Positions 8,863-44,630 of a DNA stretch of 52,829 bases are shown here, one piece after another; position 1 is the first letter of the stretch; the number at the start of each line of letters is the position of its first letter. The notes beneath the pieces are model-generated. The model made no database searches. It had not been told where the DNA came from and saw only the letters and a list, made by a program, of their open reading frames with translations. The DNA lies in the NCBI RefSeq assembly GCF_014174215.1, contig NZ_JABEQL010000029.1, positions 1 through 52,829 of the forward strand. The letters are read 5' to 3'. The stretch comes from Gluconacetobacter tumulicola (lineage in GTDB: Bacteria > Pseudomonadota > Alphaproteobacteria > Acetobacterales > Acetobacteraceae). The position numbers and the translations under genes were made by a program.

Positions 8863-9016
8863 AAAAGCTCCGATGGTGAGTGGAAGCGTGGCGCCAGCCA
8901 CGCGTCTGGCGGTGGTTTTTGAGCATCGGAGCGGAGCGGCCTTGATGGCCGTGAGCACCGAAGCGCAGGAAACGCGCGTCGGATCGCCGCCAGCGCGCAT
9001 TTCCAGGCAGGCTTTT
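8863..9016 (-). repeat. Dispersed structured intergenic repeat, copy 1
   Basis: First of three long copies of the same element. The core (about 8921-9005) is nearly identical to that of copy 3 at 44535-44618, including GGCCTTGATGGCC. The internal hairpin is GCGTGGC (8886-8892), loop GCCA, GCCACGC (8897-8903); copies 2 and 3 have GCGGCCC/GGGCCGC there, so pairing is kept while three base pairs are changed. The outer arms pair only through AAAAGC (8863-8868) and GCTTTT (9011-9016), so the left arm is eroded. The element begins at the stop codon (9015-9017) of the minus-strand Rdx gene and lies in its 3' UTR. Confidence 0.8.
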
Positions 9017-9299
9017 AGCGGTCGGTGTGGCCTAGAGACCGTTGCGGATCTATAATGTCCCGCACGCGCTGCTTCAGTTCTTTCGGGCCGGGGAAGCCGC
9101 CGTCGCGCGTGCGTTCCCACAGCAGGCTGCCATCCAGCATGATCTCGAAGCGGCCGCCGCTGTCGTCGGGGATCAGTGCGACCTCGCCCAGCGCGGCGCC
9201 GAAGGTCGAGAGGAGTTCCTGCGCCATCCAGGCCGCGCGCAGCAGCCAGTTGCAGCGGGTGCAGTAGCGGATCGTCAGGCGCGGGTGCTGGGTGGGCAT
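9015..9299 (-). CDS. Rdx-family (SelT/SelW/SelH) thioredoxin-fold protein
   Basis: A 94-residue protein of the selenoprotein W-related Rdx family, a small thioredoxin-like fold. The redox motif is CTRC (Cys13, Cys16) in IRYCTRCNW, the cysteine version of the CxxU motif. RFEIMLDGSLLWERTRDGGFPGPKELKQRVRD is the standard family C-terminal half. ATG 9299 places the redox motif about 12 residues from the start, as in relatives; an upstream in-frame ATG at 9335 would add 12 residues. Family members are proposed thiol-redox proteins, with no established bacterial function. A structured repeat begins at its stop codon. Confidence 0.88.
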   Translation of the reverse strand: MPTQHPRLTIRYCTRCNWLLRAAWMAQELLSTFGAALGEVALIPDDSGGRFEIMLDGSLLWERTRDGGFPGPKELKQRVRDIIDPQRSLGHTDR

Positions 9300-9389
9300 G
9301 GCGGGGGGCTTTCCCAGGGCGATGGGCGGGCCCATTCCGCCCGGCCGGTCCCGGGTGGGAACGCGGCCGGCCCCGCAAAGGATGCATGG

Positions 9390-9408
9390 GGGGCGGACCG
9401 GCCGCCCC
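9390..9408 (-). terminator. GC-rich hairpin downstream of the HU gene
   Basis: On the minus strand GGGGCGG, a 5-nt loop and CCGCCCC form a perfect 7-bp stem 20 bp after the HU stop codon. There is no U-tract. It may act as terminator or as a stabilising 3' hairpin. Confidence 0.45.
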
Positions 9409-9428
9409 TCCGATGCCGGTTGGGGTGA

Positions 9429-9698
9429 TCAGACCGCCTTCTTGAGGTTCGGGCTGGCCTTGAAGCGGACGGTCTTGCCGGCCTTGACCTTTACCGACTC
9501 GCCGGTGCGGGGATTGAGTGCCTTGCGGGCCTTCGTCTTGTGCACGGTGAACGTGCCGAAGGAGGGGAGCGTGAACCCGCCTTCCTCGTGCAACGTGGCC
9601 ACGATCGCATCGATCAGGTCGTTGGCGGCCTTGCCGGCAGCAACGCCCGTGCAGTTAAGAGAATCCTGAAGAACGGCGGCGATGAAAGCCTTGCTCAT
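9429..9698 (-). CDS. hup: HU-family histone-like DNA-binding protein
   Basis: An 89-residue HU/IHF-family protein that bends and compacts DNA as a dimer. The DNA-binding arm signature is present in slightly modified form (FGTFTVHKTKARKALNPRTGESVKVKAGKTVRFKASPNLKKAV). The N-terminal helices start MSKAFIAAVLQDSL. ATG 9698 was chosen because it gives the exact family length; the much longer open frame upstream overlaps the SDR gene antisense to its sense and has no HU-like sequence. No classical Shine-Dalgarno is visible. The sequence fits HU rather than IHF because the gene stands alone and the arm has an HU-like NPRTG. Confidence 0.93.
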   Translation of the reverse strand: MSKAFIAAVLQDSLNCTGVAAGKAANDLIDAIVATLHEEGGFTLPSFGTFTVHKTKARKALNPRTGESVKVKAGKTVRFKASPNLKKAV

Positions 9699-9859
9699 GG
9701 AGGAGCGTGTCCCAATGGTTAAAGATGTCGGGACGGTAGCAGCGGGACCGGAAAAATGTCTAATCCCATCGTAACGACATGTGCCTGAAACATCGCCTTT
9801 TGAAGCGTGTGTGGACGAAAAGCTGCTTGCGGCAGCTCTTCGCCCTGTAAAACCGGTGC

Positions 9860-10627
9860 TTACTGGGCGGTATAGCCGCCATCGATGACCAGTTCGCTGC
9901 CGGTCATGAATTTCGATTCGTCGGAGGCGAGGTAGAGGATGCCGTAGGCGATGTCGTCGGCTTCGCCCAGATGCCCCACGGGATGCAGCGCCTCCAGCCG
10001 TTTGCGGGCGGCGAGCTGGTCGGCGGTTTCGCCGGTCAGGCCCTGGACCATCGGGGTCCAGATATAGCCGGGATGGACCGAGTTGACGCGGACCCGGTAG
10101 CCGGAGCGGGCGCAATGCAAGGCCGCCGATTTGGTGAACAGGCGCACGCCGCCCTTGCTGGCATTGTAGGCGGCCAGGGTCGGATCGCCGATCAGCCCCT
10201 CGATCGAGGACAGGTTGATGATCGACCCGCCATGGTCCTTCATCGCGGCGACGGCGGCCTTCGTGCCCAGGAAGACGCCGTCGAGATTGATCGACTGCAC
10301 GCGGCGCCAGTCGTTCAGGCTGGTGCTTTCCACCGTGCCGGAATAGGCGATGCCGGCATTGTTGACCAGGATATCCAGCCGCCCGAAGCGCGCCAGGACA
10401 GCGGCGATGGCCAGCGTCCACTCATCTTCGCGGCTGACATCCAGCGGGACGAACAGGGCCTCGCCCCCGGCCGCCTCGATTTCGGCCACGACGGCGTGGC
10501 CTTCATCTTCCTTCAGGTCGGCGACGGCGACCTTTGCGCCCTCGCGGGCCAGCATCAGGGCGGCCGCCTTGCCGATGCCGAGTGATGCGCCCGTGACGAT
10601 CGCGACTTTGCCGGAAACACGTGCCAT
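9860..10627 (-). CDS. Short-chain dehydrogenase/reductase (R-ADH / glucose-1-dehydrogenase-like)
   Basis: A 255-residue classical SDR with TGASLGIG (12-19), NNAG (about 89-92) and the catalytic Ser141, Tyr154, Lys158. The acidic residue at Asp37 after the second strand (VAVADLKED) suggests preference for NAD over NADP. The sequence around HPGYIWTPMVQGLTG and the C-terminal SKFMTGSELVIDGGYTAQ resembles bacterial secondary-alcohol or cyclic-alcohol dehydrogenases of the LbADH type. The exact substrate is not determinable. It stands alone, 161 bp upstream of HU on the same strand. Confidence 0.88.
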   Translation of the reverse strand: MARVSGKVAIVTGASLGIGKAAALMLAREGAKVAVADLKEDEGHAVVAEIEAAGGEALFVPLDVSREDEWTLAIAAVLARFGRLDILVNNAGIAYSGTVESTSLNDWRRVQSINLDGVFLGTKAAVAAMKDHGGSIINLSSIEGLIGDPTLAAYNASKGGVRLFTKSAALHCARSGYRVRVNSVHPGYIWTPMVQGLTGETADQLAARKRLEALHPVGHLGEADDIAYGILYLASDESKFMTGSELVIDGGYTAQ

Positions 10628-10877
10628 GACGGCGCTCCATGATCAGAAAGGGGGTGCAGTATGATGAGAGCGCCTGCTCGGATTCCATGATCTGGATCAA
10701 GGATGGGGGCCGGCTTGCGGCTCCACCGACGGTCGATCGGCAAAGTAAATATAATCTTCATAATTCGGTCGGCGGATTGACTGTAGGTTCGCGCGCGTGT
10801 CCCTGCCATTCCGGCCGTGGGCGGCGTGCGTCCATCAAATTGGGAAACGGGCGCCAGATAGAGCGAAAGGGTGGCCT

Positions 10878-12731
10878 GTGCGATCGCTTGGTATCAAAGG
10901 GTCGTTGAGTATCGTTCTGTTTTTTATCGCCCTTTCCTGTGTGTTCTCCGGGCTGTTTTCGATAGGGGGCCTGACCTATGTGAATGGCCGGGTCGAGGCG
11001 ATTACCAACAAGTCGCTTGCGAGCATCAAGGCGCTTTCGACCCTGCGCACCGAGATCCAGAATTTCCGGGGCATCGAAATCACGCAGCTTACCGCGTCGT
11101 CGCAGGATGATTTCACGAAGCTCTCGGGCGAGAGCGACGTGGCCTCGGACAAGATCGCCCACGCCATCGACCAGTATGTTCCGTTCATCACGACGGATCG
11201 CGAGCAGGCGCTGTTCCATAACATTCAGGAGCAATGGTACCAGTACAAGGACCTGCACGACGAGACGTTCAAGACCTGGTCGGTTGCCCAGGACCATGCC
11301 CACGCCGTCGCGACGGCCGGCCAGGATCTGGTCGAGGCGGAGGAAACGGTTTCGGAGACCCTGACCTCGTTCCTCGATGGCAGCATCAAGGATGCGGCGT
11401 CGTATGGTGTTCAGTCGGAGGCTGTCTACAGGACGACGATCCGCCGGGTCTATGCGGCTTATTCCGTGCTGTTCGTCGTGATGCTGGCGGCGGTTCTTGT
11501 GGTTCTGTACAAGATTCTACGGCCGCTTCAGTGGATCAATACTTCCATCACCAGGCTGGCGGGCGGGGAGACGGACCTGGTCTTTCCGATGGACAGGACG
11601 GACGAGATCGGTGCGATTTCCCGTTCGCTTGAGGTCTTTCGTGTCGCCGCCATTGCGAAGCAGGAGCTGGAGCGGGATGCCGAGGGCCAGCGCCGACGCG
11701 TGGAGGCCGAGCGTGTCGCCATTCAGGAGCAGGCCGAGGCCGAGGCCCGGGAATGGCTGCTGCGGGCCACCAGCGCGCTGGCGGATGGGCTGAAGCGGAT
11801 GGCGGGCGGCGATCTTTCCTTCCAGATCACGACCCCGTTCTCGGCGGAATTCGAATCCCTGCGCGGTGATTTCAACCAGTCCCTGGCCCAGCTTGGCGCG
11901 GCCTTCGGCCAGATGTCGGGCGCCGTCCGCGTGATCCGCGACGGGACCCATGAACTGGCGGCCGGGGCGGAGAATCTGGCGCGCCGGACCGAACGTCAGG
12001 CCGCGGCGCTGGAGCAGACGAACGCGGCGGTGTCGGGGATTGTCCGGAGCGTGGCGGATACGGCGGAGCGGTCGGACAATGCCCACCGGATCGGTGTACG
12101 GGCGCGCGAGTCGGCGGCGACCTCGCGCACCGTCACGCTGGAAACGGAGGAGGCGATGAGCCGGATCGAACGGGGATCGGAGAGGATCGCCGCGATCGTG
12201 GACATGATCGACAATGTAGCCTTCCAGACCAATATCCTGGCGCTGAATGCCAGTGTCGAGGCCGCCAGGGCCGGGGAGGCGGGCAGGGGCTTCACCGTGG
12301 TGGCCAGCGAAGTGCGCCTGCTCGCGCAGAAATGCGCCGACGCCGCCCGGGATGTGCGGAGCGTGATCCGCGCGACTGCCGCCGACGTGAAGGATGGCTC
12401 GAGCCGGGTCAGGGATTGCAGCGGGGCGCTGCGGACGATTTCCGATTTTATCGGCGAGATGGGGGAGCATCTGGATGCCATCGCCGTGGCGGCGAAGGAG
12501 CAATCGTCCAGCCTGTCGGAGATCAATGCCGCCGTGGGTTCGCTGGATCAGACGACGCAGCAGAACACGAATGTTGCCGAGAGATTCAGCGAAACATCCC
12601 GGCGGCTGGCCACTGAGGGGCGGCGGCTCAACGGTCTGGTTGAAACATTCCGTCTGCCGGAGGCGCGCGGCTCCGGACCGGCTGTCGCGGTACGGAAAAC
12701 CACGGTGGAACCGGCGCTGCTGTCAGGGTGA
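10878..12731 (+). CDS. Methyl-accepting chemotaxis protein
   Basis: A chemoreceptor of about 617 residues: TM helix just after the N-terminus (SLSIVLFFIALSCVFSGLFS), a periplasmic four-helix-bundle sensor of about 150 residues, a second TM helix (SVLFVVMLAAVLVVLYKIL), a HAMP domain, and a cytoplasmic signalling domain with the highly conserved hairpin tip AFQTNILALNASVEAARAGE followed by GRGFTVVASEVRLLAQ. GTG 10878 was chosen because AAAGG precedes it and the TM helix then sits close to the N-terminus; an upstream in-frame GTG at 10797 would add 27 residues. The C-terminus lacks an obvious CheR-docking pentapeptide. No che genes are nearby and the ligand is unknown. Confidence 0.93.
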   Translation: MRSLGIKGSLSIVLFFIALSCVFSGLFSIGGLTYVNGRVEAITNKSLASIKALSTLRTEIQNFRGIEITQLTASSQDDFTKLSGESDVASDKIAHAIDQYVPFITTDREQALFHNIQEQWYQYKDLHDETFKTWSVAQDHAHAVATAGQDLVEAEETVSETLTSFLDGSIKDAASYGVQSEAVYRTTIRRVYAAYSVLFVVMLAAVLVVLYKILRPLQWINTSITRLAGGETDLVFPMDRTDEIGAISRSLEVFRVAAIAKQELERDAEGQRRRVEAERVAIQEQAEAEAREWLLRATSALADGLKRMAGGDLSFQITTPFSAEFESLRGDFNQSLAQLGAAFGQMSGAVRVIRDGTHELAAGAENLARRTERQAAALEQTNAAVSGIVRSVADTAERSDNAHRIGVRARESAATSRTVTLETEEAMSRIERGSERIAAIVDMIDNVAFQTNILALNASVEAARAGEAGRGFTVVASEVRLLAQKCADAARDVRSVIRATAADVKDGSSRVRDCSGALRTISDFIGEMGEHLDAIAVAAKEQSSSLSEINAAVGSLDQTTQQNTNVAERFSETSRRLATEGRRLNGLVETFRLPEARGSGPAVAVRKTTVEPALLSG

Positions 12732-12861
12732 GGGGACGCCGCGACGGCTGAACCTGATATCCGGCCGTGGAAAACGCATGACTGATCGCGGCCATCGCGC
12801 CTTTCCGGTCAGGCTCCGCCAAGGGCAGCCTGTCGGGAAAGGCGTGCGGGAGCGGGAGCCG

Positions 12862-13458
12862 TCAGGTATCCAGTTCGCTGTCCCAGTATAGATAATCCCG
12901 CCAGCTCTCATGCAGGTAATTCGGCGGGAAGGAGCGTCCGTTTTCCTGCAATTCCCAGGTGGAAGGCTGGGCGGGCGTGCGGCGCGGATACATGTGGAGT
13001 TCATACGGCATCCGCGAGCCCTTCATCAGATTGCAGGGGCTACAGGCGGTGACGACGTTTTCCCACGTGGTGCGGCCGCCCTTGCAGCGGGGAATGACGT
13101 GGTCGAACGTCAGATCGTGGGTCGGCAGGCGGTCCAGGCAATATTGACAGGAGAAATTGTCGCGCAGGAAGACGTTGAAGCGGGTGAAGGCGGGTCGGCG
13201 GGCGGTCGGGATATAATCCTTCAGCGCGATGACGCTGGGTAATCGGAGTGACCGGCTGGGGGAGCGGACTTCCTCGTCATATTCGCTGAGGACCGAGACC
13301 CGGTCGAGGAACACCGCCTTGATGGCATCCTGCCATGACCAGAGCGAGAGCGGAAAATAGGAAAGCGGCCTGAAATCAGCGTTCAGGACCAAGGCCGGAT
13401 AATGTGGACTGCCAGCAAGCAAGGGGCGCATCCTTTCGCGATGCCGCCACACCATCAT
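12862..13458 (-). CDS. HNH endonuclease domain protein
   Basis: A protein of up to 198 residues with a C-terminal HNH nuclease fold: CQYC, then THDLTFDHVIPRCKGG, WENVVTACSPCNLMKG. The two CxxC pairs form a structural zinc site and DHVIP carries the catalytic His. The N-terminal half (PALVLNADFRPLSYFPLSLWSWQDAIKAVFLDRV) is typical of a stand-alone HNH family common in alphaproteobacteria, where it is chromosomal and not tied to a phage. An ATG at 13431 (MRPLLAGSPHYP) may be the true start because conserved sequence begins just after it. Biological role unknown. Confidence 0.88.
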   Translation of the reverse strand: MMVWRHRERMRPLLAGSPHYPALVLNADFRPLSYFPLSLWSWQDAIKAVFLDRVSVLSEYDEEVRSPSRSLRLPSVIALKDYIPTARRPAFTRFNVFLRDNFSCQYCLDRLPTHDLTFDHVIPRCKGGRTTWENVVTACSPCNLMKGSRMPYELHMYPRRTPAQPSTWELQENGRSFPPNYLHESWRDYLYWDSELDT

Positions 13459-13608
13459 CGGGCGTCGTTACTCAAAATCCGAACGCCGAATGATATGCGC
13501 CGTTGAGAACCTTCAATCTATATCGCAAATATTCCTCGTTTCCGCAAGGGAGGCGGGGGCATTCGTGCCGGTCCGGCGACGGGGCGGCGGGTGAGGGAGC
13601 GTTGCGGT

Positions 13609-15844
<2,236 letters not shown>

Positions 15845-15854
15845 GGACCGGTAA

Positions 15855-17069
15855 ATGGCATCGGAAGAGCCCGGCTTCGCCGCCCGCACCGGGCGGCTGG
15901 AATCGCCCGCCACCATCGCCATGGCGGTGCGGGCGCGGGCGCTGCGGGCCGAAGGGCATCAGGTACTGTCGCTGGCGCTGGGCGAGCCGGATTTCGCCAC
16001 CCCGCGCGCGGTGATCGAGGCCACGCATCGGGCCGCGCTGGACGGGCAGACGAAATATCCGCCCGTCGATGGCACCCCGGCGCTGAAAACCGCGATCGCG
16101 CACAAATTCGCACGCGAGAACGGGCTGGAATACGCGCTGTCGGAGATCATGGTTTCCAACGGCGGCAAGCAGGTGATCTTCAACGCCTTCATGGCGACCA
16201 TCGATGCCGGCGACGAGGTGGTGATCCCCGCACCCTACTGGGTCAGTTATCCGCTGGCGGCGCGGCTGTTCGGCGGCGTGCCGGTGGCGGCGGAATGTCG
16301 GGAGGAAGACGGGTTCCGCCTGACCGCGCCGGCGCTTGAGGCTGCGATGTCGCCGCGCACGCGCTGGGTGGTGCTGAACTTCCCCAGCAATCCGACCGGG
16401 GCGGTGATGGGGCTGGCGGATCTGGAAGCCGTGGCCGAGGTGCTGCGCCGCTATCCTCAGGCGTGGATTCTGTCCGATGAGATCTATGAGCATCTGGTCT
16501 TCGACGGGGCGCGTCATCATTCGCTGGCTGCCGTGGCGCCGGATCTGGCATCGCGCATCCTGACGGTGAACGGGGTGTCGAAATCCTATGCCATGACCGG
16601 CTGGCGCGTGGGCTATGCGGGTGGGCCGGAGCGGCTGATCCGCATGATGACGCGGATTCAGGGCAATGCGACCTCGGGCATCTGTTCGGTCGCGCAGGCC
16701 GCGGCCGCCGCCGCGCTGGATGGGCCGGCGTCGCTGATCGCGGAGATGCGCGATACCTATGCGCGGCGCCGCACGATGGTGGTGGAGGCCCTGCGCGCCA
16801 TTCCCGGCGTGACCTGTGCCATGCCGGAGGGGGCGTTCTATGCCTATCCGGGCATTGCCGGCTGCCTGGGGCGGACCAGCAGGGGCGGGCAGGCGGTGCG
16901 GACGGATGAGGATTTTGCCCGCGCCCTGCTGGACGAGCAGCATGTGGCCTGCGTGCATGGCAGCGCCTTCGGGCTGGGGCCTTACCTGCGCCTCTCCTGT
17001 GCTACCAGCGACGATGTGCTGCGCGAAGCCTGCGCGCGGATCGCCGATTTCGTAGCCGGCCTGCGATAG
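15855..17069 (+). CDS. Class I aminotransferase, tandem paralogue of the preceding gene
   Basis: A 404-residue PLP aminotransferase, clearly homologous to its upstream neighbour throughout: LSLALGEPDFATPRAV, SNGGKQVIFNAF, NFPSNPTG, DEIYEHLVFDG, PLP lysine in NGVSKSYAMTGWRVG, and LRLSCA at the C-terminus. It begins 10 bp after the stop of the first, so the two are co-transcribed. It differs at several positions lining the substrate pocket region (for example SAGEPDF to ALGEPDF and DDIY to DEIY), so it may have another amino-acid preference such as aromatic or prephenate. The split of function is inference. Confidence 0.92.
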   Translation: MASEEPGFAARTGRLESPATIAMAVRARALRAEGHQVLSLALGEPDFATPRAVIEATHRAALDGQTKYPPVDGTPALKTAIAHKFARENGLEYALSEIMVSNGGKQVIFNAFMATIDAGDEVVIPAPYWVSYPLAARLFGGVPVAAECREEDGFRLTAPALEAAMSPRTRWVVLNFPSNPTGAVMGLADLEAVAEVLRRYPQAWILSDEIYEHLVFDGARHHSLAAVAPDLASRILTVNGVSKSYAMTGWRVGYAGGPERLIRMMTRIQGNATSGICSVAQAAAAAALDGPASLIAEMRDTYARRRTMVVEALRAIPGVTCAMPEGAFYAYPGIAGCLGRTSRGGQAVRTDEDFARALLDEQHVACVHGSAFGLGPYLRLSCATSDDVLREACARIADFVAGLR

Positions 17070-17125
17070 CGAAAGATTTATTCGTTCAGGAAAAACCGAT
17101 GTCCCCAGAACAAGGTTCCCTGAAC

Positions 17126-17163
17126 AAAAAAAAGTTTTTTGGTTCTTTTTTTCAAAAAAGAAC
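17126..17163. terminator. Bidirectional A/T-rich hairpin between convergent genes
   Basis: GTTCTTTTTT (from 17142) pairs with AAAAAAGAAC (ending 17163), preceded by an A8 run and GTTTTTT. The stretch lies between the stop codons of the aminotransferase (plus) and the cyclophilin gene (minus) and supplies U-tracts in both directions. Its striking base composition in a GC-rich region suggests a mobile or conserved terminator module. Confidence 0.65.
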
Positions 17164-17172
17164 AACGCGACT

Positions 17173-18060: not shown

Positions 18061-18245
18061 GCCTGCGGTGAAAGGATTACGGCAAGCGTGGAAACCAGGG
18101 GGATGGCCATGTCTGTCCTTTCATCCCTGACCCGCTGAAAGGTCGCCTGGGTGGATGAACGCCATGGGCATTCTTCCGGCATCGTGTTTTCCGCCAATTA
18201 TCGGGGCTTCGCCGGAACTGTATTATTCCGGCAACAGTCTGTGAT

Positions 18246-18283: not shown

Positions 18284-18359
18284 TAGACAACCCCGTCTCA
18301 GGGCGGGCAGAAAAAACACATCTCACGTTCTTTGTTCATAGTCCGGATGCGCCAGATCC

Positions 18360-29412: not shown

Positions 29413-29414
29413 GG

Positions 29415-35374: not shown

Positions 35375-35447
35375 GGTCCGCGTGTCGCGGATCAAGGGCC
35401 GGCGCGCCAATCCGCGCGAACGGGCCGTATTGTCAGGATGATCGGGC

Positions 35448-36113: not shown

Positions 36114-36847
36114 GGGGAGTCTCTCAAAGAGGAGATGAAAATCGTGGGGAATGTTTGTTGAAAATATGCCGATGTGGGGGCGTTTTTCTTGTCTTGTTCA
36201 TTTCATTCCGGACGAAACGGAAGCTGTTGTTGCGCTGCGCCGAATGACCGACCGCCGGTTTCAGGCAGGCTACCGGTTCGGAACCGGTGGGTGCGAAGCG
36301 CATTATGGATAAGAGAATTTGATCCAATAAGTTTCACATACTCTCTTTCCCGAAGAAAATGCAAGGCCGGGCTGATCGCATGTTCTTCCGGTGCTGTGCG
36401 CTGAATTGACGCCGTATGTGCAAAATTTCACCCTTGTGCAATATTTAGAATTAAATTACCGTAAATAATTACGAATATTATCGTAATGAATGGATAGATT
36501 GTGTGTTTTTTGTGTTAGCCATGTAATTTCGTTTCTTTTTAAAGTAATGTTTTCTTATTTCATTTTATTTTTTTTGATATGACGTTGAGATGTTGTAATT
36601 GTTTATTGTGTAACTCCCGATGATTTTGGACGGGTAGGGTATTTCCTGCCTGATTGCTGAGGGAACGTGGGAGAAAGCAGGGGGTTTTTTGTCTTTTCCT
36701 CGGGTTCTGGAATGGAGGGATAATAAACATCACGTTTCCGTGATGTCTAGCCCGATCCTGTATGCCGCCTGAATGGCGATGCCGGGCGCGCCGACATGAT
36801 TTGAAAAAATGAAGATCCCGTGGGCCCGGATAGGCGCGCCGCTGTCG
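36114..36847. other. Long AT-rich intergenic region
   Basis: No gene was recognised in these 734 bp. From about 36320 to 36620 the sequence is strikingly AT-rich compared with the rest of the window. It contains a perfect inverted repeat ATTACGA-N6-TCGTAAT (36468-36487), T-rich runs (36525-36575), and a stretch of short poly-T. Such a region could bind a nucleoid protein, hold a promoter for an untranslated RNA, or be a remnant of transferred DNA. The short ORFs inside have no ribosome sites. Confidence 0.5.
36468..36487. promoter_or_regulatory. Perfect inverted repeat in the AT-rich gap
   Basis: ATTACGA (36468-36474), spacer ATATTA, TCGTAAT (36481-36487). A nearby partial copy (ATTACCGTAAAT) lies at 36456-36467. 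This resembles a dimer operator. No regulator can be named. Confidence 0.35.
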
Positions 36848-37009
36848 GAGCCTGACCAAAAATGTGGGCTGGCGAGCGAGAGCGGCCCGCAGGGCCGCGC
36901 CCGGCGTGTGTTTCCGAGCATCGGAGCGGAGTGGCCTTGATGGCCATGAGCACCGAAGCGCAGGCAACACGCGCTGGAGCGCCGCCAGCGCGCATTTTCG
37001 GTCAGGCTC
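36848..37009 (-). repeat. Dispersed structured intergenic repeat, copy 2
   Basis: Second long copy. Arms GAGCCTGACCAAAAATG (36848-36864) and CATTTTCGGTCAGGCTC (36993-37009) pair over 16 of 17 positions. The arm sequence differs from that of copy 3 yet stays complementary. Internal hairpin GCGGCCC (36882-36888), loop GCA, GGGCCGC (36892-36898). The core contains GAGCATCGGAGCGGAGTGGC and GGCCTTGATGGCC as in the other copies. The element abuts the stop codon (37010-37012) of the minus-strand PduO gene exactly. Confidence 0.85.
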
Positions 37010-37585
37010 TCAGATATCCGGGTTGCCGGGATGCCACAGCACATCGTCCTGTCCGTCATTGTTCAGGTGCCGGGCCAGTACGAACAGATAATCGGACAGT
37101 CGGTTCAGGCAGCGCAGGACGGACGCGCTGACGGGTTCGGCATGGCGTAGCGTCACGACCTGGCGTTCTGCCCGGCGGGCCACTGTGCGGGCCAGATGAG
37201 CGTGGGCGGCGCCCGGACTGCCGGCTGGCAGCACGAAACTGCGCAGGGGCGCCTGGCAGGCGCGCAGCCGTTCCGTCGCCTGTTCGAGAAACGCGACCGC
37301 CGCGTCGCCGCCGCGAAAATTGTCGGTATCGGCTGGTCCGGATTCCGGCACGCACAGGATCCCGCCGATATCGAACAGCAGGGACTGGATGCGTGCCAGG
37401 CAGGCGGCATCGGGCGAAGATGCCGGCACATGCAGCCGCAGGACGCCGATCGTGGCATTGGCCTCGTCCACCGCGCCCAGGGCCTCGATCCGCGCGCAGG
37501 ATTTGTCCACCCGCGTTCCGTCGCCCAGCGAGGTCTGCCCGCCATCGCCGCCGCGGGTGACGATGCGATCGATTCGGATGCTCAT
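37010..37585 (-). CDS. pduO: Cob(I)yrinic acid a,c-diamide adenosyltransferase, PduO type
   Basis: A 191-residue ATP:cob(I)alamin adenosyltransferase that makes adenosylcobalamin. Family motifs: the N-terminal TRGGDGGQTSLGDGTRVDKSCARIEALGAVDEANATIG, and the C-terminal SVLRCLNRLSDYLFVLARHLN (ATP/cobalamin-binding helix with Asn, Arg and Asp). The region RARRAERQVV-like (RTVARRAERQVVTL) carries the family Arg-Glu. Trimeric in relatives. No other cobalamin gene is in the window. A structured repeat starts at its stop codon. Confidence 0.93.
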   Translation of the reverse strand: MSIRIDRIVTRGGDGGQTSLGDGTRVDKSCARIEALGAVDEANATIGVLRLHVPASSPDAACLARIQSLLFDIGGILCVPESGPADTDNFRGGDAAVAFLEQATERLRACQAPLRSFVLPAGSPGAAHAHLARTVARRAERQVVTLRHAEPVSASVLRCLNRLSDYLFVLARHLNNDGQDDVLWHPGNPDI

Positions 37586-37636
37586 GGTGCGTGTCGGTTC
37601 CTCACGGTCGGGGGACCGGCTGCGGCTTCGTTCCGG

Positions 37637-38185
37637 TCAGTGATGCGGGCGACGATGGTGCCCGTGTTGGCCCAATGTCCTGGCCATGTCCAGATGGGAG
37701 TGGACGGCCGCCTGCATGTCGATGGCGTAGGTTTTCAGGGCCGGGTCGGACCCGCTGGCCGCTTCGGCCTGGAACAGCGGGGCGGCATCATTGTGGCCCG
37801 CGATCTGCAGGGCGGTGAAGTCGCGGTCGAAGGTGCGCCCCTTTTCGGCCTTCAGACTGTCCAGAACATGTTCCTCGTCCGTATTCAGGTCGGCGGGCAG
37901 GGTGGTGCCATGCCGGTCGGCGATGGCCTTCAGCCGGTCCTGGCTGGCTGTGTGGTCGGAGACCAGCCGGGCGGCGAAATCCTTGACATGCGGGTTGCGG
38001 GCCTGGGTGGCGGCCAGCTTTGCCGTCGCGATGATGAAATCGTTGCTGCGGGCGGCCTTTTCGATGAACGTGGCGTCGGTCTCGGTCAGGGCAGGCGGCG
38101 GCGCGGGTGCGGGTTTCGGCGCGGTGGCGCAGGCGGCCAGCGGCAGCAGTGCCGCGAAGAGCATCCAGCGATCATGTTTCGTCAT
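37637..38185 (-). CDS. DUF4142 lipoprotein
   Basis: A 182-residue protein with a signal peptide ending in a lipobox (LLPLAAC), so likely lipid-anchored, followed by a Pro-rich linker and a DUF4142 domain, a ferritin-like four-helix bundle: FIEKAARSNDFIIATAKLAATQARNPHVKDFAARLVSDHTAS, then LQIAGHNDAAPLFQAEAASG and a His-rich tail (GQHGHHRRPHH). The domain function is unknown; the His tail may bind metal. ATG 38185 was chosen by the signal peptide. It is 51 bp upstream of PduO. Confidence 0.85.
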   Translation of the reverse strand: MTKHDRWMLFAALLPLAACATAPKPAPAPPPALTETDATFIEKAARSNDFIIATAKLAATQARNPHVKDFAARLVSDHTASQDRLKAIADRHGTTLPADLNTDEEHVLDSLKAEKGRTFDRDFTALQIAGHNDAAPLFQAEAASGSDPALKTYAIDMQAAVHSHLDMARTLGQHGHHRRPHH

Positions 38186-38259
38186 CGGTCCCCGATCCTT
38201 TCCCGGCATGGCGGATACAGGCCCAACGTGGGCATCCCCATGGGGTTCGGGCGATGCTG

Positions 38260-39207
38260 CTAGAGTGTGCGCATCTCTTCGACGCAGGTGACCAGCCGCC
38301 GGCGGATCCCCGGTTCCAGCGCGGAATGCCCGGCGTCCGGCACCAGGCTGAGTGTGGCGCCGGGCCACGCGTGGACGAGGTCCCATGCGGAGGTGCAGGG
38401 GCAGATCATGTCGTAGCGGCCCTGGACGATGATGCCGGGAATATGGGCGATCCGCTCCATATGGCCCAGCAGGCCGCCCGGCGGCAGGAACAGGCCGTGG
38501 CGGAAATAATGGGCCTCGATCCGTGCCAGGCCGATCACCGCGCGGTCGCGGGCGAAGCCGGCGACGGCCGCGGGTGCGGGGATCAGGGTGGAGCATGTGC
38601 CCTCATAGCCCGACCAGGCTCGCGCGGCCGGCAGGTGGATCGCCGGGTCGGGGTCGAACAGCAGCCGGCAATAGGCCGCCAGCGGATCGTGGCGTTCATG
38701 CTCGGGCAGGTGCGACAGGAAGGCCGCATGCGCGTCGGGAAAGACCTGGGCCAGCCCGTGGAAGAACCAGTCCAACTCGCTCGGCCGGCCCAGGAAGATC
38801 CCGCGCAGGATCATCGCCCGCACCCGCTCGGGGTGGGCCTGGGCGTAGGACAATGCCAGCGTCGAGCCCCATGAGCCGCCGAACAGGAGCCAGTCTGGAA
38901 TATTCAGCGCCGTGCGCAGGCGCTCGATATCCTGCACCAGGTGCGGCGTGGTGTTGGCGACCACCGAGGCGTGCGGGCGCGAGCGGCCCGCGCCGCGCTG
39001 GTCGAACAGCACGATTCGCCAGTGCGTGGGATCGAAGAAGCGGCGATGGACCGCCCCGCTGCCTGCGCCGGGGCCGCCATGCAGGAACAGGACCGGCCGG
39101 CCGGCCGGATTGCCCGCCTGTTCCCAATAGAGTTCGTGCCCGTCGCCGACAGGCAGGGTGCCGCTTTCGTACGGCGCGATGTCCGGAAACAGGTCGTGGC
39201 GTGGCAT
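38260..39207 (-). CDS. pip: Proline iminopeptidase
   Basis: A 315-residue alpha/beta-hydrolase of peptidase family S33 that removes N-terminal proline. Motifs: LFLHGGPGAGSG (oxyanion loop), DQRGAGRSRPH, the nucleophile elbow GGSWGST (Ser), GRYDMICP (Asp) and DAGHSALE (His). Length and the P-specific cap region are typical. ATG 39207 follows from homology; the open frame runs on antisense to the DUF423 gene. Divergent from that gene by 48 bp. Confidence 0.93.
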   Translation of the reverse strand: MPRHDLFPDIAPYESGTLPVGDGHELYWEQAGNPAGRPVLFLHGGPGAGSGAVHRRFFDPTHWRIVLFDQRGAGRSRPHASVVANTTPHLVQDIERLRTALNIPDWLLFGGSWGSTLALSYAQAHPERVRAMILRGIFLGRPSELDWFFHGLAQVFPDAHAAFLSHLPEHERHDPLAAYCRLLFDPDPAIHLPAARAWSGYEGTCSTLIPAPAAVAGFARDRAVIGLARIEAHYFRHGLFLPPGGLLGHMERIAHIPGIIVQGRYDMICPCTSAWDLVHAWPGATLSLVPDAGHSALEPGIRRRLVTCVEEMRTL

Positions 39208-39255
39208 GGGGCGACTATACGGCAACAGGGGCGCCCGGCTAGACTGCCGGTCGTG

Positions 39256-39663
39256 ATGACTCTGTCTGGTTCTCCTTATTCGGTGCCGCGTGCGGCCCGG
39301 CTTTTCCTCTCGCTGGGCGGCCTGCTGGGGCTGCTGTCGGTGGCGGGCGGCGCGCTGGCGGCGCACCTGCCCGATGCGATGTTCGCCGCTTCTTCCGGCC
39401 GCGCGCTGGCGCGCGAGGCGGTGCAGATGGGCATGTGGCACGCGCCCGCGCTGCTGGCGGTCGGCATCCTGCTGTGCGTGCGGGGGCGGCGGGTGCCGCT
39501 GCTGCTGGCCGGCGCCGCCTTTGCGCTGGGGGTGGTGCTGTTCAGCGGTGCCGTCGGCTGGACCGGCGTGACGGGGCGGCATCTGGGCCCGGTCGCGCCC
39601 ACCGGCGGCAGCCTGCTGATGCTGGCGTGGCTGCTTCTGGCGGTGGACGGACTGCGCCGATGA
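39256..39663 (+). CDS. DUF423 membrane protein
   Basis: A 135-residue integral membrane protein with four hydrophobic segments (LFLSLGGLLGLLSVAGGALAAH, HAPALLAVGILLC, LLLAGAAFALGVVLFSGA, GGSLLMLAWLLLAVDGL). The first, GALAAHLPD, and WTGVTGRHLGPVAPTGGSL are DUF423 signatures. Function unknown, though relatives are often beside an RNA methyltransferase gene. The stop codon overlaps the start of the next gene (ATGA). Confidence 0.82.
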   Translation: MTLSGSPYSVPRAARLFLSLGGLLGLLSVAGGALAAHLPDAMFAASSGRALAREAVQMGMWHAPALLAVGILLCVRGRRVPLLLAGAAFALGVVLFSGAVGWTGVTGRHLGPVAPTGGSLLMLAWLLLAVDGLRR

Positions 39664-40652
39664 CCGCACCTGTTCATGGCGATGAGGCGCCGGTCGTGCT
39701 GCCGCACCCCGTGCGTGCGGCCTATCTGGCGGCCGAAGGGTTCGAGGACGCGCTGGCCGAGGAACTGGGCCGGCAGGGCGCGGACATCATGGCGTGGCAT
39801 GGGCGGCTGGCGCTTTCGGCCAGCCCGCCGGTTGCGGCGGCATGGGCGCTGGATATCTGGCTGGAGCCCGAGATCCATTCCATCGCCTCGATCGGCGCGG
39901 CGGTGGCGCTGCTGCGCGGTCGGCAGCGCAACTGGGCCTGCCATGCCGTGCGCCATCACCGTCGCGCGACGCTGATTGCGGACCGCCTGCCGCCGGTGGC
40001 CGCCCGGCCGCTGGTCTTTCCCGCCGCGGCGCCCACCGGGCATCTGGGCGGGTGGACGCTGCTGGCGCCGGATACGCTGTTGCTGTCGGCGCGCAAATCC
40101 TCGCCCTTCGTGAACGGGGTGGTGCCGTTTGTCGAGGATCGGGTGGGGCCGCCTTCGCGCGCCTATCTGAAATTATGGGAAGCCTGCGCCCGGCTGGGTG
40201 CGTGGCCCATGCCCGGTGAACGCTGCGTCGATCTGGGGGCGTCGCCTGGCGGGTGGACCTGGGCGATTGCGCAATGTGGGGCGGACGTGGTGGCGGTGGA
40301 TCGTGCGGACCTCGCGCCACAGGTGGCGGCGATGCCGGGGGTGACGCTGCGCCGGGAAAGCGCGTTCGGGATCGAGCCCGCCGAACTGGGGGCGGTGGAC
40401 TGGATGTTCTCCGACATCATCGCTTACCCGACGCGCCTGCTGGCGCTGGCGCAGCGCTGGATCGCGGGCCGCACGGCGCGGCGCATCGTGATGACCATCA
40501 AGTTCCAGGGCACCACCGACCACGAGACCGCCGCCGCCTTCGCCGCGATTCCGGGCGGGCGGGTGCTGCATCTGTGGCACAACAAGCATGAACTGACGTT
40601 TTTGTGGGACCGCGATGCGGCGGCCCAGGCCGAACCGTTACCGCCGGGCTGA
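39660..40652 (+). CDS. rlmM: RlmM-like 23S rRNA 2'-O-methyltransferase
   Basis: A 330-residue protein with an N-terminal THUMP-like region and a C-terminal FtsJ/RrmJ-type SAM methyltransferase. Motif I is CVDLGASPGGWTWAI; the catalytic tetrad K-D-K-E of 2'-O-methyltransferases can be traced as SRAYLKLWEA (Lys), the Asp in SDIIAYP, MTIKFQG (Lys) and KHELTF (Glu). This fits the RlmM family that methylates C2498 of 23S rRNA. It is translationally coupled to DUF423 by ATGA. Confidence 0.85.
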   Translation: MTAPVHGDEAPVVLPHPVRAAYLAAEGFEDALAEELGRQGADIMAWHGRLALSASPPVAAAWALDIWLEPEIHSIASIGAAVALLRGRQRNWACHAVRHHRRATLIADRLPPVAARPLVFPAAAPTGHLGGWTLLAPDTLLLSARKSSPFVNGVVPFVEDRVGPPSRAYLKLWEACARLGAWPMPGERCVDLGASPGGWTWAIAQCGADVVAVDRADLAPQVAAMPGVTLRRESAFGIEPAELGAVDWMFSDIIAYPTRLLALAQRWIAGRTARRIVMTIKFQGTTDHETAAAFAAIPGGRVLHLWHNKHELTFLWDRDAAAQAEPLPPG

Positions 40653-40949
40653 GGCCCGGCGCGCGCGCAGTCGGTCGATCGCCCATTCGCCGCCCTGCAC
40701 GATCGGCAGGGCCAGCAGGAAGCAGGTGACGGCGACCCCCATCACGATCAGCCGTTCGCGGGCCTCGGCGTCCGAGGCGCCGGTCATGCCGTACAGGCTG
40801 CTCCACAGCCGTGTTCCGGCAATGTGATCGACCAGATAGGCGACATGGGCGCTGTAGCGCAGGGTGGCCATCAGCCCGGCCGTCACGGCCACCATGGCGG
40901 CGGTCTTGATCAGGGTGCGGGCGATGCCGGATTGCGCGGCCTCTGTCAT
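40638..40949 (-). CDS. Small membrane protein of unknown function
   Basis: A 103-residue protein with two hydrophobic segments (TLIKTAAMVAVTAGLMATL and LIVMGVAVTCFLLALPIV) and a basic C-terminus. It overlaps the 3' end of the convergent methyltransferase gene by 15 bp. GGATGAC precedes the ATG weakly. It is probably real, but no function can be given. Confidence 0.6.
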   Translation of the reverse strand: MTEAAQSGIARTLIKTAAMVAVTAGLMATLRYSAHVAYLVDHIAGTRLWSSLYGMTGASDAEARERLIVMGVAVTCFLLALPIVQGGEWAIDRLRARRASARR

Positions 40950-41062
40950 CCGGGAGAAGATCCTTTTATCGTCATGATGGATCTGTATGGCTTTTGCCGC
41001 GTAAGATCCATCTTAACCTGATATTATGCCTTGTTCATCCTTGGCTTCATGGACCGAATTTC

Positions 41063-41575
41063 ATGCTTCTGCGCCGCCTTCTTCCCCTGACCGTCCTGAT
41101 GGCCGGTCTGGCCGCCACCCCGGCCCTGGCCGACCTGCCGCCCGTGCCCCAGGTGGGGCAGGAAACGCCGAAGCCGGTCGCCGCACCCTATGGGCCGACC
41201 GAGGGCGCGCAGGCGCAGGTCGATGCCGCCTTCAGGACAGCGAAGGAAACGGGCCGCAATGTGCTGATCGATTTCGGCGGCAACTGGTGCCCGGATTGCC
41301 GGATGCTGTCGGGTGTTCTGGCGCTGCCCTCGGTCGCGCCTTGGGTGGCTGCGCATTTCGTTACCGTGATGGTCAATGTCGGGCGGATCAATACCAACCT
41401 GGATATCGCCCAGCATTATGGGGTGACGATCAAGGCCGTGCCCACGGTGCTGATCGTGACGTCCCAGGGGCGGCTGCTGAACCCGGACGGTACGCTGGAA
41501 CTGGGGAATGCGCGGCGCATGTCGGCCCAGGCGGTCGTTGACCTGCTGGCCGGCTGGAACGGCCGCGGGGCCTGA
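41063..41575 (+). CDS. Secreted thioredoxin-like protein
   Basis: A 170-residue protein with a signal peptide (MLLRRLLPLTVLMAGLAATPALA) and a thioredoxin fold of the Thioredoxin_7 type. The active site is CPDC (Cys76-Cys79) in DFGGNWCPDCRML, and AVPTVLIV contains the cis-Pro. It should act as a periplasmic thiol-disulfide protein. ATG 41063 was chosen for the signal peptide. It has its own strong terminator. Confidence 0.88.
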   Translation: MLLRRLLPLTVLMAGLAATPALADLPPVPQVGQETPKPVAAPYGPTEGAQAQVDAAFRTAKETGRNVLIDFGGNWCPDCRMLSGVLALPSVAPWVAAHFVTVMVNVGRINTNLDIAQHYGVTIKAVPTVLIVTSQGRLLNPDGTLELGNARRMSAQAVVDLLAGWNGRGA

Positions 41576-41578
41576 ATG

Positions 41579-41605
41579 GAAGGGCGGGGGTTTCCCCCGC
41601 CCTTC
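41579..41605 (+). terminator. Strong hairpin terminator of the thioredoxin-like gene
   Basis: GAAGGGCGGGGG and CCCCCGCCCTTC form a perfect 12-bp stem with a TTT loop, starting 3 bp after the stop codon, followed by TTGATT. Confidence 0.8.
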
Positions 41606-41613
41606 TTGATTCG

Positions 41614-41703
41614 AAAGGCTGTTTGAAAAGTCAGCCTGCCGAGTGAGGGTGCCGCGAAGCGGCACGCCGGATCGCCGGCAGGGTGACTTTGCAAGCAGCC
41701 TTT
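41614..41703 (-). repeat. Short structured hairpin element at the M3 peptidase stop codon
   Basis: A 90-bp element. Its outer arms (41614-41641 and 41676-41703) form a nearly continuous stem of about 28 bp with only two mismatches, and inside lies GTGCCGC (41649-41655), loop GAA, GCGGCAC (41659-41665). It ends exactly at the stop (41704-41706) of the minus-strand peptidase gene. Layout and the inner CGGATCGCCG(G/C)CAG match the three long repeat copies, so it may be a shorter relative. As DNA it may serve as a terminator for the peptidase gene. Confidence 0.7.
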
Positions 41704-43380
41704 TTAGCGCGTGTGCAGGAAGCGGTCGGCCTCCTGCACGATGTCGGCCAGGGTGCCCTGTTTGAAGGGGCTGATCAGGCCGGCGGCGTCGACCAGGCCG
41801 GTGAAGGGCTGCGAGCCGCCCAGCGCGCAGAGATCGGCATAGATTGCCATCGCGCCTGCCTGGTCGGCCCGGCTGTATAGCCAGAACTGCATCGCGCAGC
41901 ACAGGGCCAGCGTGTAGTCGATGTAATAGAAGGGCGAGCGGTAGATATGGCCCTGGGCCTGCCAGCGGCCGCCGCCGGCGGGCCATGACAGGTCGCCGTA
42001 ATCGCGCCAGGGCAGGTACAGCTTTTCCAGACGCTGCCAGGTTTCGTGCCGTTCGGCGGCCGTCATATCGGGTTTGGCGTAGATCTCGTGCTGGAAATGA
42101 TCGACGCAGACGCCGTAGGGCAGGAAGCTCAGCGAGCCGATCAGGTGCATGCGGCGGAAGCGGTCGGCCAGCCCGTCCTCGACCATCAGGTCGATCTGCG
42201 GCCAGGTGAGGAATTCCAGCGCCATCGAATGGATCTCGGCGGCGTCCATGGTCGGCCAGAGCAGGTCGATCCCCGGCAGGTCGCGGCTCTTCCAGTTCTG
42301 GTAGGCGTGGCCCATTTCGTGCGTGAAGACGGTGATGTCGTGCTGGGTGCCGTTGAAATTGGCGAAGATGAAGGGCATCCCGACGCTGGGAAAGGCGGTG
42401 CAGAAGCCGCCGCCGGCCTTGCCCTCGCGATTGCGCAGGTCGAGGAAGCCGCCTTCGACCATCTGGCGGTAGAACGTGCCCAGATCGCCGCCCATGCGGT
42501 CGAACATCGTCTGCGCCCGTTCCAGCAGCAGGTCGTGGTCGCCGGCCGGCTTCGGGTTGCCCAGCGGGTCGATCAGCGATTCGTCCCAGAAATGCAGCCG
42601 GTCCCAGTTCATGGTCAGGCGGCGGTTTTCCATGATCGCGCTCACCAGCGGCACCACATGGGCCAGCACGTCGTCGCGAAAGCGCGCGACCTCTTCCGGC
42701 CCGTAATCGACGCGGCGCATCCGCCGGTAGCCCAGAGGGGTGTAGGTATCATAGCCCAGCGTGCGCGCCATGCCGTGGCGCACTTGGACCAGTTGGTCGT
42801 AGATCCGGTCCAGCTCGGGCCCGTTGGCGGCGAAGAAGTCCCATCGCGCCTTCTCGGCCTCGTGGCGGACGGCGCGGTCGGGATGTTCGGCGAAGGGGGC
42901 GAGGCCGGACAGATTGACCGTCTGGCCCTGCACCGTCACGCGTGCGGCGGCCAGCAGGGCGGTATAGTCGGCGCCCAGCCGGGATTCTTCTTCCAGTGCC
43001 TCGCGGATGCGCGGGTCGAAGGTGGTGATGTCGGTTTCCCACAGGCGGACGGTGTGGGTGCCGACGGCGGTGGCGAGGCCCGCGCGGTCGGGGTCATCCA
43101 GCAGCCGGCGCTTGATGGCGACTTCAAGCTCGGTCACGTGCGGGGTCAGGCGGTCGGCCAGGTCGCGATCGGTGCGGGCCTGCTGGCTGGTGGTGTCCTG
43201 GGAGAAGCGCAGGGCGACCATCGAGGCCCAACTGTCATAGGCCCGGCGTTCGGCGTCGAAGCGGGTCAGTGCCTGGGCGCGGTCGCCTTCGTCCAGCAGG
43301 GCGGATACGGCGCCGAAGGCCGCATCGAGGCTTTCGGCGGAGGGGGTGGGGAAAGTGAGGTCGGCGAATTGGATGGACAT
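41704..43380 (-). CDS. M3-family oligoendopeptidase
   Basis: A 558-residue zinc metallopeptidase of the oligoendopeptidase F type. The gluzincin motif HEMGH is at 354-358 (ITVFTHEMGHAYQNW), with the third ligand Glu about 25 residues later (DAAEIHSMALE). Other conserved segments are FCTAFPSVGMPFIFANFNGT and YYIDYTLALCCAMQFW. It hydrolyses short peptides in the cytoplasm. ATG 43380 was chosen; a longer frame starts at 43416. A structured hairpin starts at its stop codon. Confidence 0.92.
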   Translation of the reverse strand: MSIQFADLTFPTPSAESLDAAFGAVSALLDEGDRAQALTRFDAERRAYDSWASMVALRFSQDTTSQQARTDRDLADRLTPHVTELEVAIKRRLLDDPDRAGLATAVGTHTVRLWETDITTFDPRIREALEEESRLGADYTALLAAARVTVQGQTVNLSGLAPFAEHPDRAVRHEAEKARWDFFAANGPELDRIYDQLVQVRHGMARTLGYDTYTPLGYRRMRRVDYGPEEVARFRDDVLAHVVPLVSAIMENRRLTMNWDRLHFWDESLIDPLGNPKPAGDHDLLLERAQTMFDRMGGDLGTFYRQMVEGGFLDLRNREGKAGGGFCTAFPSVGMPFIFANFNGTQHDITVFTHEMGHAYQNWKSRDLPGIDLLWPTMDAAEIHSMALEFLTWPQIDLMVEDGLADRFRRMHLIGSLSFLPYGVCVDHFQHEIYAKPDMTAAERHETWQRLEKLYLPWRDYGDLSWPAGGGRWQAQGHIYRSPFYYIDYTLALCCAMQFWLYSRADQAGAMAIYADLCALGGSQPFTGLVDAAGLISPFKQGTLADIVQEADRFLHTR

Positions 43381-43428
43381 GGCCGCATCATCGCATTCGC
43401 GATACGGCCCGTCCACGGTCCTGTGCGG

Positions 43429-44424
43429 TCAAGCCCCGGCCAGCGCGTGCCGCGCCGCCGCCGCGAGGGCGAAGGAATGCAGGCGGGCGGCGTGGTCGTG
43501 GATCGCGCCGACGATCATCAGCTCGTCGGGCTGGTGGCGCTCGATGAAGCGGGCCAGGCCGGTGCGCACGGTGTCAGGGCCGCCCACGACGGCGCAGGCC
43601 AGCGCCCGGTCGATTCCGGTTTGTTCGGTCGGGGTCCATAGTCCCTCTGTTTCGGCAACTGGGGGCGGAAACTGGCCGGGCCGGCCCCGGCGCAGGGCGA
43701 CGAATTGCTGCTGGTGCGAGGTGAACAGGAACCGGGCCTGCGCATCGGTGTCGGCGGCCACCACGTTCAGCCCCAGCATGACGTAGGGCTGAGCCAGCCG
43801 GGCGGATGGGGTGAAACGCTGGCGGTAGAGCGTTGCGGCCTCTTCCATCATGTCCGGCGCGAAATGCGAGGCAAAGGCGAAGGGCAGGCCCAGATGGGCC
43901 GCCAGATGGGCCGAGAACAGCGACGATCCCAGCAGCCAGACCGGGATATCCATGCTCGCGCCGGGCACGGCCTGCACGCGCTGGCCGGGCTGGGGCGGGG
44001 CGAAATAATGCAGCAGCTCGGCGACTTCCTGCGGGAAGCGATCGGCGCTGGTGGGGTCGCGGCGCAGGGCGCGCATCGTTTCCTGGTCCGAGCCAGGGGC
44101 GCGGCCCAGCCCGAGGTCGATCCGGCCGGGGAACAGGCTTTCCAGCGTGCCGAACTGTTCGGCCACCATCAGAGGGGCGTGGTTGGGCAGCATGATGCCC
44201 CCGGCGCCGACGCGGATATGCTGCGTGCCCGCCGCCAGATGGCCGATCAGGATGGCGGTCGCCGCCGACGCGATGGCCGGCATGGCATGATGTTCGGCCA
44301 CCCAGTAGCGGTGAAAGCCCAGCGCCTCGGCATGGCGCGAGAGGTCGAGGCTGTTGCGAAAAGCGGTGGCGGCGTCACTGCCACGAACGATCAGGGACAG
44401 GTCGAGGACCGAGAAGGGGATCAC
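43429..44424 (-). CDS. LLM-class flavin-dependent oxidoreductase
   Basis: A 331-residue bacterial luciferase-like TIM-barrel monooxygenase that uses FMNH2. Recognisable: [52 protein letters not shown] and [14 protein letters not shown], typical of the YhbW-type subgroup. Substrate unknown, and no partner flavin reductase is nearby. It starts 205 bp downstream of the OPT transporter gene on the same strand, with a structured repeat between them. Confidence 0.9.
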
Positions 44425-44463
44425 CGCTGGAAACTCCTTTTATCGTCCGTGTGTCTGGTCTCG

Positions 44464-44630
44464 GAAACCCTGTCTGGAAATGTGGGCTGGTGAGCGAGAG
44501 CGGCCCGAAAGGGCCGCGCCCGTCGTGTGTTTCCGAGCATCGGAGCGGAGTGGCCTTGATGGCCATGAGCACCGAAGCGCAGGAAACGCGCGTCGGATCG
44601 CCGCCAGCGCGCATTTCCAGACAGGGTTTC
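44464..44630 (-). repeat. Dispersed structured intergenic repeat, copy 3
   Basis: The best-preserved copy. Arms GAAACCCTGTCTGGAAATG (44464-44482) and CATTTCCAGACAGGGTTTC (44612-44630) are a perfect 19-bp inverted repeat. The internal hairpin is GCGGCCC (44500-44506), loop GAAA, GGGCCGC (44511-44517). The core is nearly identical to that of copies 1 and 2. The arm overlaps the stop codon (44629-44631) of the minus-strand OPT gene, so the stop codon itself begins the stem. Confidence 0.88.

Follow-up and report, generated by a model that had tools for sequence, protein, structure and literature searches.

Palindromic, MITE-like insertion elements with a one-strand structured domain at stop codons in Gluconacetobacter

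The 52,829-nucleotide stretch of the Gluconacetobacter tumulicola genome analyzed here (contig NZ_JABEQL010000029.1, positions 1 to 52,829; the window) contains four copies of a palindromic repeat, each of which abuts, at its right end, the stop codon of a gene on the minus strand. All four match the covariance model of the element, R1, on the plus strand. Copy 1 (8848-9019; 103.9 bits) ends at the TAA of an Rdx-family gene (9015-9335, minus strand; PF10262, 3.6e-30). Copy 2, a full element (36843-37014; 186.2 bits), ends at the TGA of a cobalamin adenosyltransferase (PduO) gene (37010-37585, minus strand; PF01923, 4.5e-53), and copy 3, likewise full (44461-44633; 193.9 bits, supported by its fold), at the TGA of an OPT transporter gene (44629-46581, minus strand; PF03169, 8.7e-99). 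An earlier note on this DNA had described these three copies and placed each at a minus-strand stop; both statements hold, and the right ends overlap the three stop codons. It had missed copy 4, a short form at about 41613-41704 (72.4 bits at 41610-41707, and fold), which sits between convergent genes and on its right reaches the TAA (41704-41706) that ends a peptidase M3 gene (41704-43416, minus strand; PF01432, 5e-34).

The folded plus strand forms a Y, in which a long outer stem (P1) made from both arms carries two hairpins, the small P2 and the long P3. For copy 3 the predicted energy is -126.8 kcal/mol, compared with a mean of -66.1 for shuffled sequences (z -14.7). Its left arm (44464-44482, plus strand) pairs at 19 of 19 positions with its right arm (44612-44630), which extends into the stop codon at 44629-44631. 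The P3 domain at 44520-44596 (plus strand) is the part common to other Proteobacteria, as seen in alignment A5 and in a 94.5-bit match to R2, a model of P3 alone. The pairing of the arms claimed earlier for copies 2 and 3 is near-perfect in the former and perfect in the latter. Copy 4 consists of P1 and one hairpin, without P3. In the window the best-folding strand is the plus strand, antisense to the abutting genes.

R1 was built from 41 copies and gives at least 112 matches at E <= 0.001 in the 4.29-Mb genome of 90 contigs (150 of 5975 candidates scored), some of them fragments or opposite-strand repeats. It matches 26 of 100 genomes: the own genome, all 13 relatives from the genus, 10 members of the same family and two of other families. 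The arm-end pattern gave 93 matches against 1 for a reversed control. In a pattern scan of named genomes, almost all of the matches listed belong to Gluconacetobacter, with one Acetobacteraceae bin that is also R1-positive and a few other bins, among them a Planctomycetaceae bin (L191); R1 has no match in the pattern-positive Elstera and Lachnospiraceae bins. Plasmids and phages gave no match. No Rfam 15 family scores above its gathering threshold in the window, the best weak match over copy 3 being VA RNA, whose 29.3 bits compare with a cut-off of 62. Across 40 loci that include relatives, no Rfam match above the gathering threshold lies over the element, and the 10 matches listed there are to tRNA, tmRNA, rRNA and a riboswitch elsewhere.

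The element is about 165-175 nucleotides long, and its short forms measure roughly 55-100. These keep the arms and lose P3 or both inner hairpins (41613-41704 in the window; L256, L258, L260, L263, L265 and L311 elsewhere), and several contain a GGATCGCC-like motif. The R1 scan around own copies covered 79 own-genome loci. In the window the arm sequence GAGCCTGACCGGAAA stands alone at 12802-12816 on the minus strand, and at 16 other loci of this genome an arm has no partner within 1.6 kb. Head-to-tail runs of four and three copies occur in the own genome at C3:165358-165997 and C4:198948-199427. Just left of copy 4 lies a separate, perfect GC-rich hairpin (41580-41604), behind a thioredoxin-like gene (40994-41575) of which it is perhaps the own terminator.

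For comparison between copies we used 84 of the 112 own matches, dropping partial ones and those weaker than 1.2e-16, and 87 of 106 from other species, dropping opposite-strand repeats and short ones. The plus strand keeps its pairing. In a MAFFT alignment, which was not fitted to structure, 22 of 61 pairs show double-sided changes, and the 128 double-change cells exceed both shuffled alignments (20.4 ± 3.7, none of 500 as high) and slid partners (12-17). Alignments fitted to the model, which lean to structure, give 41 of 61 covarying pairs among 83 own copies and 38 of 61 among the 87 from other species. The plus strand is the stabler in 169 of 170 copies, with RNA and DNA parameters alike. 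Counted relative to nearest neighbors, wobble events include 186 G.U against 100 A.C, with a ratio of 142:69 in interior pairs; comparisons of orthologs give 140 against 49, the same copies being partly repeated. The genome-wide covariation check proposed in the earlier note thus finds strong covariation among copies, and the pattern of wobbles suggests that selection acts on a single strand in its folded form.

The copies are insertion elements, non-autonomous, palindromic and MITE-like (MITE, miniature inverted-repeat transposable element). We compared orthologs of six genes (OPT, PduO, Rdx, COX15, SDR and the gene behind L026) in up to 13 relatives from the genus. At the clearest sites, homology reaches the stop codon and resumes after the element. 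For SDR, position +174 of the carrier aligns with +6 of the non-carrier, so that 168 nucleotides are extra directly after the stop; for OPT, +158 aligns with +2, leaving 156. One relative from the genus has no element at COX15, OPT, SDR or PduO and carries copies at other places, for instance in L173 and L178; another (G006) has a copy behind SDR. The contrast drawn in the earlier note, an RNA structure and not a transposon, is not supported, since these are insertions with empty sites in relatives and 3-bp target repeats. The proteins end identically with or without the element at all six genes, except for the PduO orthologs of six species (1-3 codons apart), and the stop codon is therefore native. 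A stop supplied by the element was rejected on the same comparison. The 12 copies into whose arm the gene reads may be exceptions to this rule.

Identical 3-mers flank 20 of the 73 copies with clear GAG..CTC ends, where 9.2 are expected and the maximum in 1000 shuffles is 16; 18 of the 20 are TNA. In the same 73 copies, flanking repeats of 1, 2, 4 or 5-9 bases show no excess. The native stops, mostly TGA and TAA, usually coincide with this TNA target. The element ends in GAGCCTGACCGAAAATG, its arms pair at both ends, and its foot is GAG/CTC. Similar but not identical ends (GAGCC..GA.CCGAAA; GAGCCCGATCCGAAAG) occur, with TTA or TAA repeats, on 930-bp insertion sequences in two relatives, and we take TNA repeats with such ends to denote the IS1031 group of the IS5 family. 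The own genome holds seven PF13340 matches. As candidate parents, two of these copies were rejected on their ends, GAGGGTGTTATG; two others, at contig starts, show one end, which by eye has CTGACCGGAAATG in common with the arm, the other end lying off the contig. An arm-like end lies at the start of contig C8, adjoining a frame that is presumably IS66-like.

The direction of the element relative to genes is nearly fixed. Of the 171 copies classed (84 own, 87 from other species), with genes called by our own gene caller trained on the window, 86 meet a minus-strand stop with their right end and 12 more have such a stop inside the right arm. A single copy has its left end at a plus-strand stop, that of a gene resembling rpoD, which makes the ratio 98:1 (p 3e-28). 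The 86 stops comprise 69 TGA, 8 TAA and 9 TAG. Between co-directional genes, 81 copies are antisense to both neighbors and 14 are sense. The target letters explain at most part of this bias: where the TNA is not a stop (3-mer TCA/TGA, with frames scoring below 1 or too short), the count is 15 TCA to 6 TGA, and most of the direction bias would thus come from the gene. The earlier note had made its reading depend on most copies lying at gene 3' ends, and the count with our gene caller falls near that line, with 98 of 171 copies touching or containing a stop, 86 of them exactly at it. Of 20 copies in a 1.8-Mb genome from another family, 8 lie at a right stop and none at a left one, and at the best loci of 12 other genera, a right stop lies within 4 nucleotides in seven.

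A stop-codon position of this kind could reflect a hairpin in the 3' untranslated region (UTR), in which the mRNA-sense strand would fold after the stop and shield the transcript from 3' exonucleases or help end transcription. The site directly behind native stops, the persistence of the element at orthologous genes across species and the high stability of the mRNA-sense strand of copy 3 (-102.3 kcal/mol, z -10) are all consistent with it. However, with the direction nearly fixed, the abutting gene's mRNA would contain not the strand with the conserved fold but its complement. This speaks against a simple 3' UTR hairpin, as do the strand preference in 169 of 170 copies and the excess of G.U over A.C. 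Many copies also have co-directional genes on both sides, in some cases close together. Nor is there an A-rich left flank to yield a U-tract: the frequency of A is 0.14-0.29 in each of eight left-flank columns, and in these no U-tract follows the hairpin in the gene direction, unlike in an intrinsic terminator. We therefore consider a 3' UTR structure in the abutting mRNAs, as the earlier note had proposed, unlikely and not the simplest reading of these data.

Sister species reveal how the element changes. With repeats of any one copy removed, 27 ortholog pairs have right flanks that are at least 96% identical; 17 of these differ at 1-6 of the 61 pairs and 10 at 8-17, and in eight of the 10 divergent pairs most differences are double changes. 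In the alignments viewed, the change is confined to the element plus some sequence to its left, and the gene side is nearly unchanged. On these data, stepwise compensation is not supported as the main source of recent arm differences. Much of the arm variation between sister species looks like replacement of the element, which may proceed by conversion or by loss followed by new insertion. The inference from conserved pairing with changed sequence made in the earlier note thus stands as far as covariation goes, but part of the pair changes between sister species resembles whole-element replacement.

The Rdx site carries different forms of the element: three relatives have type A and one has a short type B hairpin alone. 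Copy 1 itself, compared by eye with its orthologs, combines a subtype-B left arm and P2 with a subtype-A right arm and P3, and there is no pairing between its two ends. At this stop (window 8848-9019; L333; L332), the window genome and one sister species carry opposite A/B chimeras, and these opposite chimeras would be a direct trace of recombination inside the repeat. If copy 1 is a chimera, as it appears to be, the altered internal hairpin is an allele of the subtype and not the product of the three compensatory pair changes that the earlier note had counted.

The element could alternatively be a plain selfish MITE, functionless and with its pairing kept only for transposition and by template-switch repair of mismatches in the hairpin. 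The insertion anatomy fits this description, and so do the many double transversions between orthologs (135 cells, compared with 162 of double transitions) and the near-equal counts of G.U and A.C in the outermost arms. A functionless repeat would nevertheless leave the 142:69 strand asymmetry of the interior unexplained, together with the 98:1 direction at stops and the conservation of the P3 loops across genera and classes. We regard it as an improbable account of the family as a whole.

P3 extends well beyond the genus. R2 was made from 26 diverse sequences (alignment A5; one of 27 candidates was misaligned and dropped, and some ends were trimmed). Double changes occur in 20 of its 25 pairs, with 151 cells against 47.0 ± 5.4 after shuffling, and its unpaired purines are invariant. 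The model matches 42 of 385 alphaproteobacterial genomes and 38 of 277 genera, own included, and 107 of 398 genomes in a phylum-wide draw. Beyond the class the matches are weak, the best having E 8e-10, and some may be due to chance; one genome has 54 matches. In 29 genomes of the class, taken at one locus each, a convergent stop lies on the right in 14 (-10 to 70 nucleotides right of P3), on the left only in four (-10 to 100) and on neither side in 11. For 33 of 36 further loci (odd lengths dropped), the corresponding split is 7 right, 2 left and 2 neither for loci of the class, and 8 right, 3 left and 11 neither for the others.

Several surroundings of P3 differ from those in Gluconacetobacter. 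In a genome of another class, a P3-type element lies antisense in an rRNA operon, between its tRNA and 23S genes (L469, about 1501-1567), and two more copies of that genome, with the same sequence, have the same surroundings (L479, L486). Two genera of another class carry long, nearly identical palindromes that have the ends AGGGCCTGTTCACAATTG and enclose a P3-like tip (L467, L468, L476, L477, L488); these would be a separate family with the same tip. In two further genomes (G204, G214), several P3 matches of equal or close score lie within about 100 nucleotides of contig ends, suggesting that recent repeats of high copy number interrupt these assemblies.

The constraint on P3 could alternatively act on DNA. 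Integron attC sites and REP (repetitive extragenic palindromic) hairpins are recognized as folded single strands, and a recombinase or HUH-type transposase that recognizes the folded plus strand would constrain the pairing and the P3 purines, with the direction reflecting which DNA strand is exposed. The strand asymmetry obtained with DNA parameters, the invariant purines, the replacement at fixed sites between sister species and P1 arms that look unrelated between genera would all follow. However, the 3-bp TNA repeats and IS1031-like ends better fit a double-strand DDE transposase, the foot lacks the GTAG of REPs, and no recombinase was recognized by eye among the longest frames beside 12 loci of the class. 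A single-stranded DNA element thus appears to us quite improbable.

We consider it probable, if by no means certain, that the family is a palindromic, MITE-like one with a one-strand structured domain, moved in trans and shaped by selection at gene ends. Movement would be by an IS5-family transposase of the IS1031 type, because full-length insertion sequences of this type in the genus resemble the element at their ends and share its target. Insertions at stop codons would survive because the duplicated TNA restores the stop. Insertions in the opposite direction would be lost if plus-strand RNA with the conserved P3 tip is harmful inside an mRNA, possibly because it signals processing or binds a protein. 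Where it faces the surviving way, the element might form a one-way barrier to antisense or read-through transcription that enters the gene from downstream, with P3 as the part that is recognized; this last step is the weakest and is a guess.

A number of observations weigh against this account. Only 20 of the 73 copies keep identical flanking 3-mers, 9 of the 86 abutting stops are TAG and not TNA, and no insertion sequence with exactly the ends of the element was found. With our gene caller, 72 of the 171 copies have neither end at a stop, although several of these may reflect missed genes. In three genomes of the own family (G055, G046, G014), 4 of 40 copies lie at a right stop and none at a left one, with gene calls that are noisy, contradict another analysis at one locus and are too poor to use. 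The outermost 12 pairs show a weak excess of G.U (44:31, p 0.17), so that P1 alone could be a DNA-level palindrome. The copies share ancestry and are partly orthologous, and since they are related the p values are too small and overstate the evidence. A transcript of either strand is itself putative.

A wider proposal, which we advance tentatively and at somewhat less than even chances, is that P3 is a previously undescribed, single-strand-specific structured domain found across Proteobacteria. It would ride on unrelated families of palindromic insertion elements, antisense to transcription units and mostly behind stops, and be read as RNA or folded single-stranded DNA by a conserved host factor, as a mobile one-way signal at gene ends. 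A description of the family was not found in literature searches for palindromic stop-codon repeats, Gluconacetobacter or Acetobacteraceae repeats, IS1031 MITEs and P3 strings, an absence that is weak evidence because subscription journals are mostly uncovered.

Apart from the element, the window contains two adjacent plus-strand frames (14408-15844 and 15855-17069) that have a 123-nucleotide stretch (76%) and a 48-nucleotide stretch (75%) in common, in register, and perhaps represent a tandem gene duplication. As for the earlier note as a whole, its observation was largely right and its interpretation half right.

Small palindromic repeats are usually taken as junk or as simple stabilizers of mRNA. 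The family described here combines three testable handles, namely a defined structured strand, a nearly fixed direction with respect to genes and a tip motif common to orders. With a tip that recurs in distantly related bacteria, the element may be a structured signal, in RNA or DNA, that has been overlooked. If the tip is bound by a host factor, the rule that it faces against the gene would reveal measurable selection on gene ends, and R2 can be used on any named genome.

Among known repeats, bcr1 of the Bacillus cereus group, listed as a structured interspersed repeat of 147-167 nucleotides (table in PMC2267715), is similar in size and structure and belongs to a different phylum; we liken it by description, not by sequence. 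ERIC, Correia/NEMIS and RUP are repeats that, like our element, are small, palindromic and MITE-like, and their transcripts would fold into long hairpins. In contrast to their termini, given as TA in a table of PMC2229807, the Gluconacetobacter element ends in GAG..CTC with TNA outside. REPs and the Br-REP1/2 repeats of Bradyrhizobium are likewise hairpin repeats in gene 3' regions, where the available text of PMC5082802 describes sense and antisense small RNAs for Br-REP1/2. REPs, which are linked to the RAYT (REP-associated tyrosine transposase) proteins, measure 20-40 bp in the portion of PMC3733652 at hand, whereas our element has about 170 nucleotides and no GTAG or CGTC tag at its foot, and the Br-REP sequences printed in the accessible part of PMC5082802 differ from it.

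Insertion sequences of the IS5/IS1031 type have the same 3-bp TNA repeat and similar, though not identical, ends, but the element (about 170 nucleotides) has no transposase gene, is too short for one and has an unrelated interior. The palindromic YPAL or RU-2 elements of Yersinia, reportedly the subject of a study by De Gregorio in 2006, sit just after stop codons, with an mRNA hairpin there. The Gluconacetobacter element resembles this placement, at a stop in 86 of 171 copies with the stop inside the arm in 12 more. As described in the available sections of PMC2229807 and PMC2267715, YPAL is a palindrome of about 168 bp with up to about 100 copies, target duplications and both empty and filled sites, and is linked to expression of the upstream gene. 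Its target repeats range from 3 to 26 bp and its inverted repeats are internal (available sections of PMC2229807). Size, palindromy, copy number, target duplication and empty sites thus agree, by description and not by sequence, although our element differs in its 3-bp TNA and terminal repeats. The fixed direction and a P3 common to orders are features of the Gluconacetobacter element that do not appear in those sections' descriptions of YPAL.

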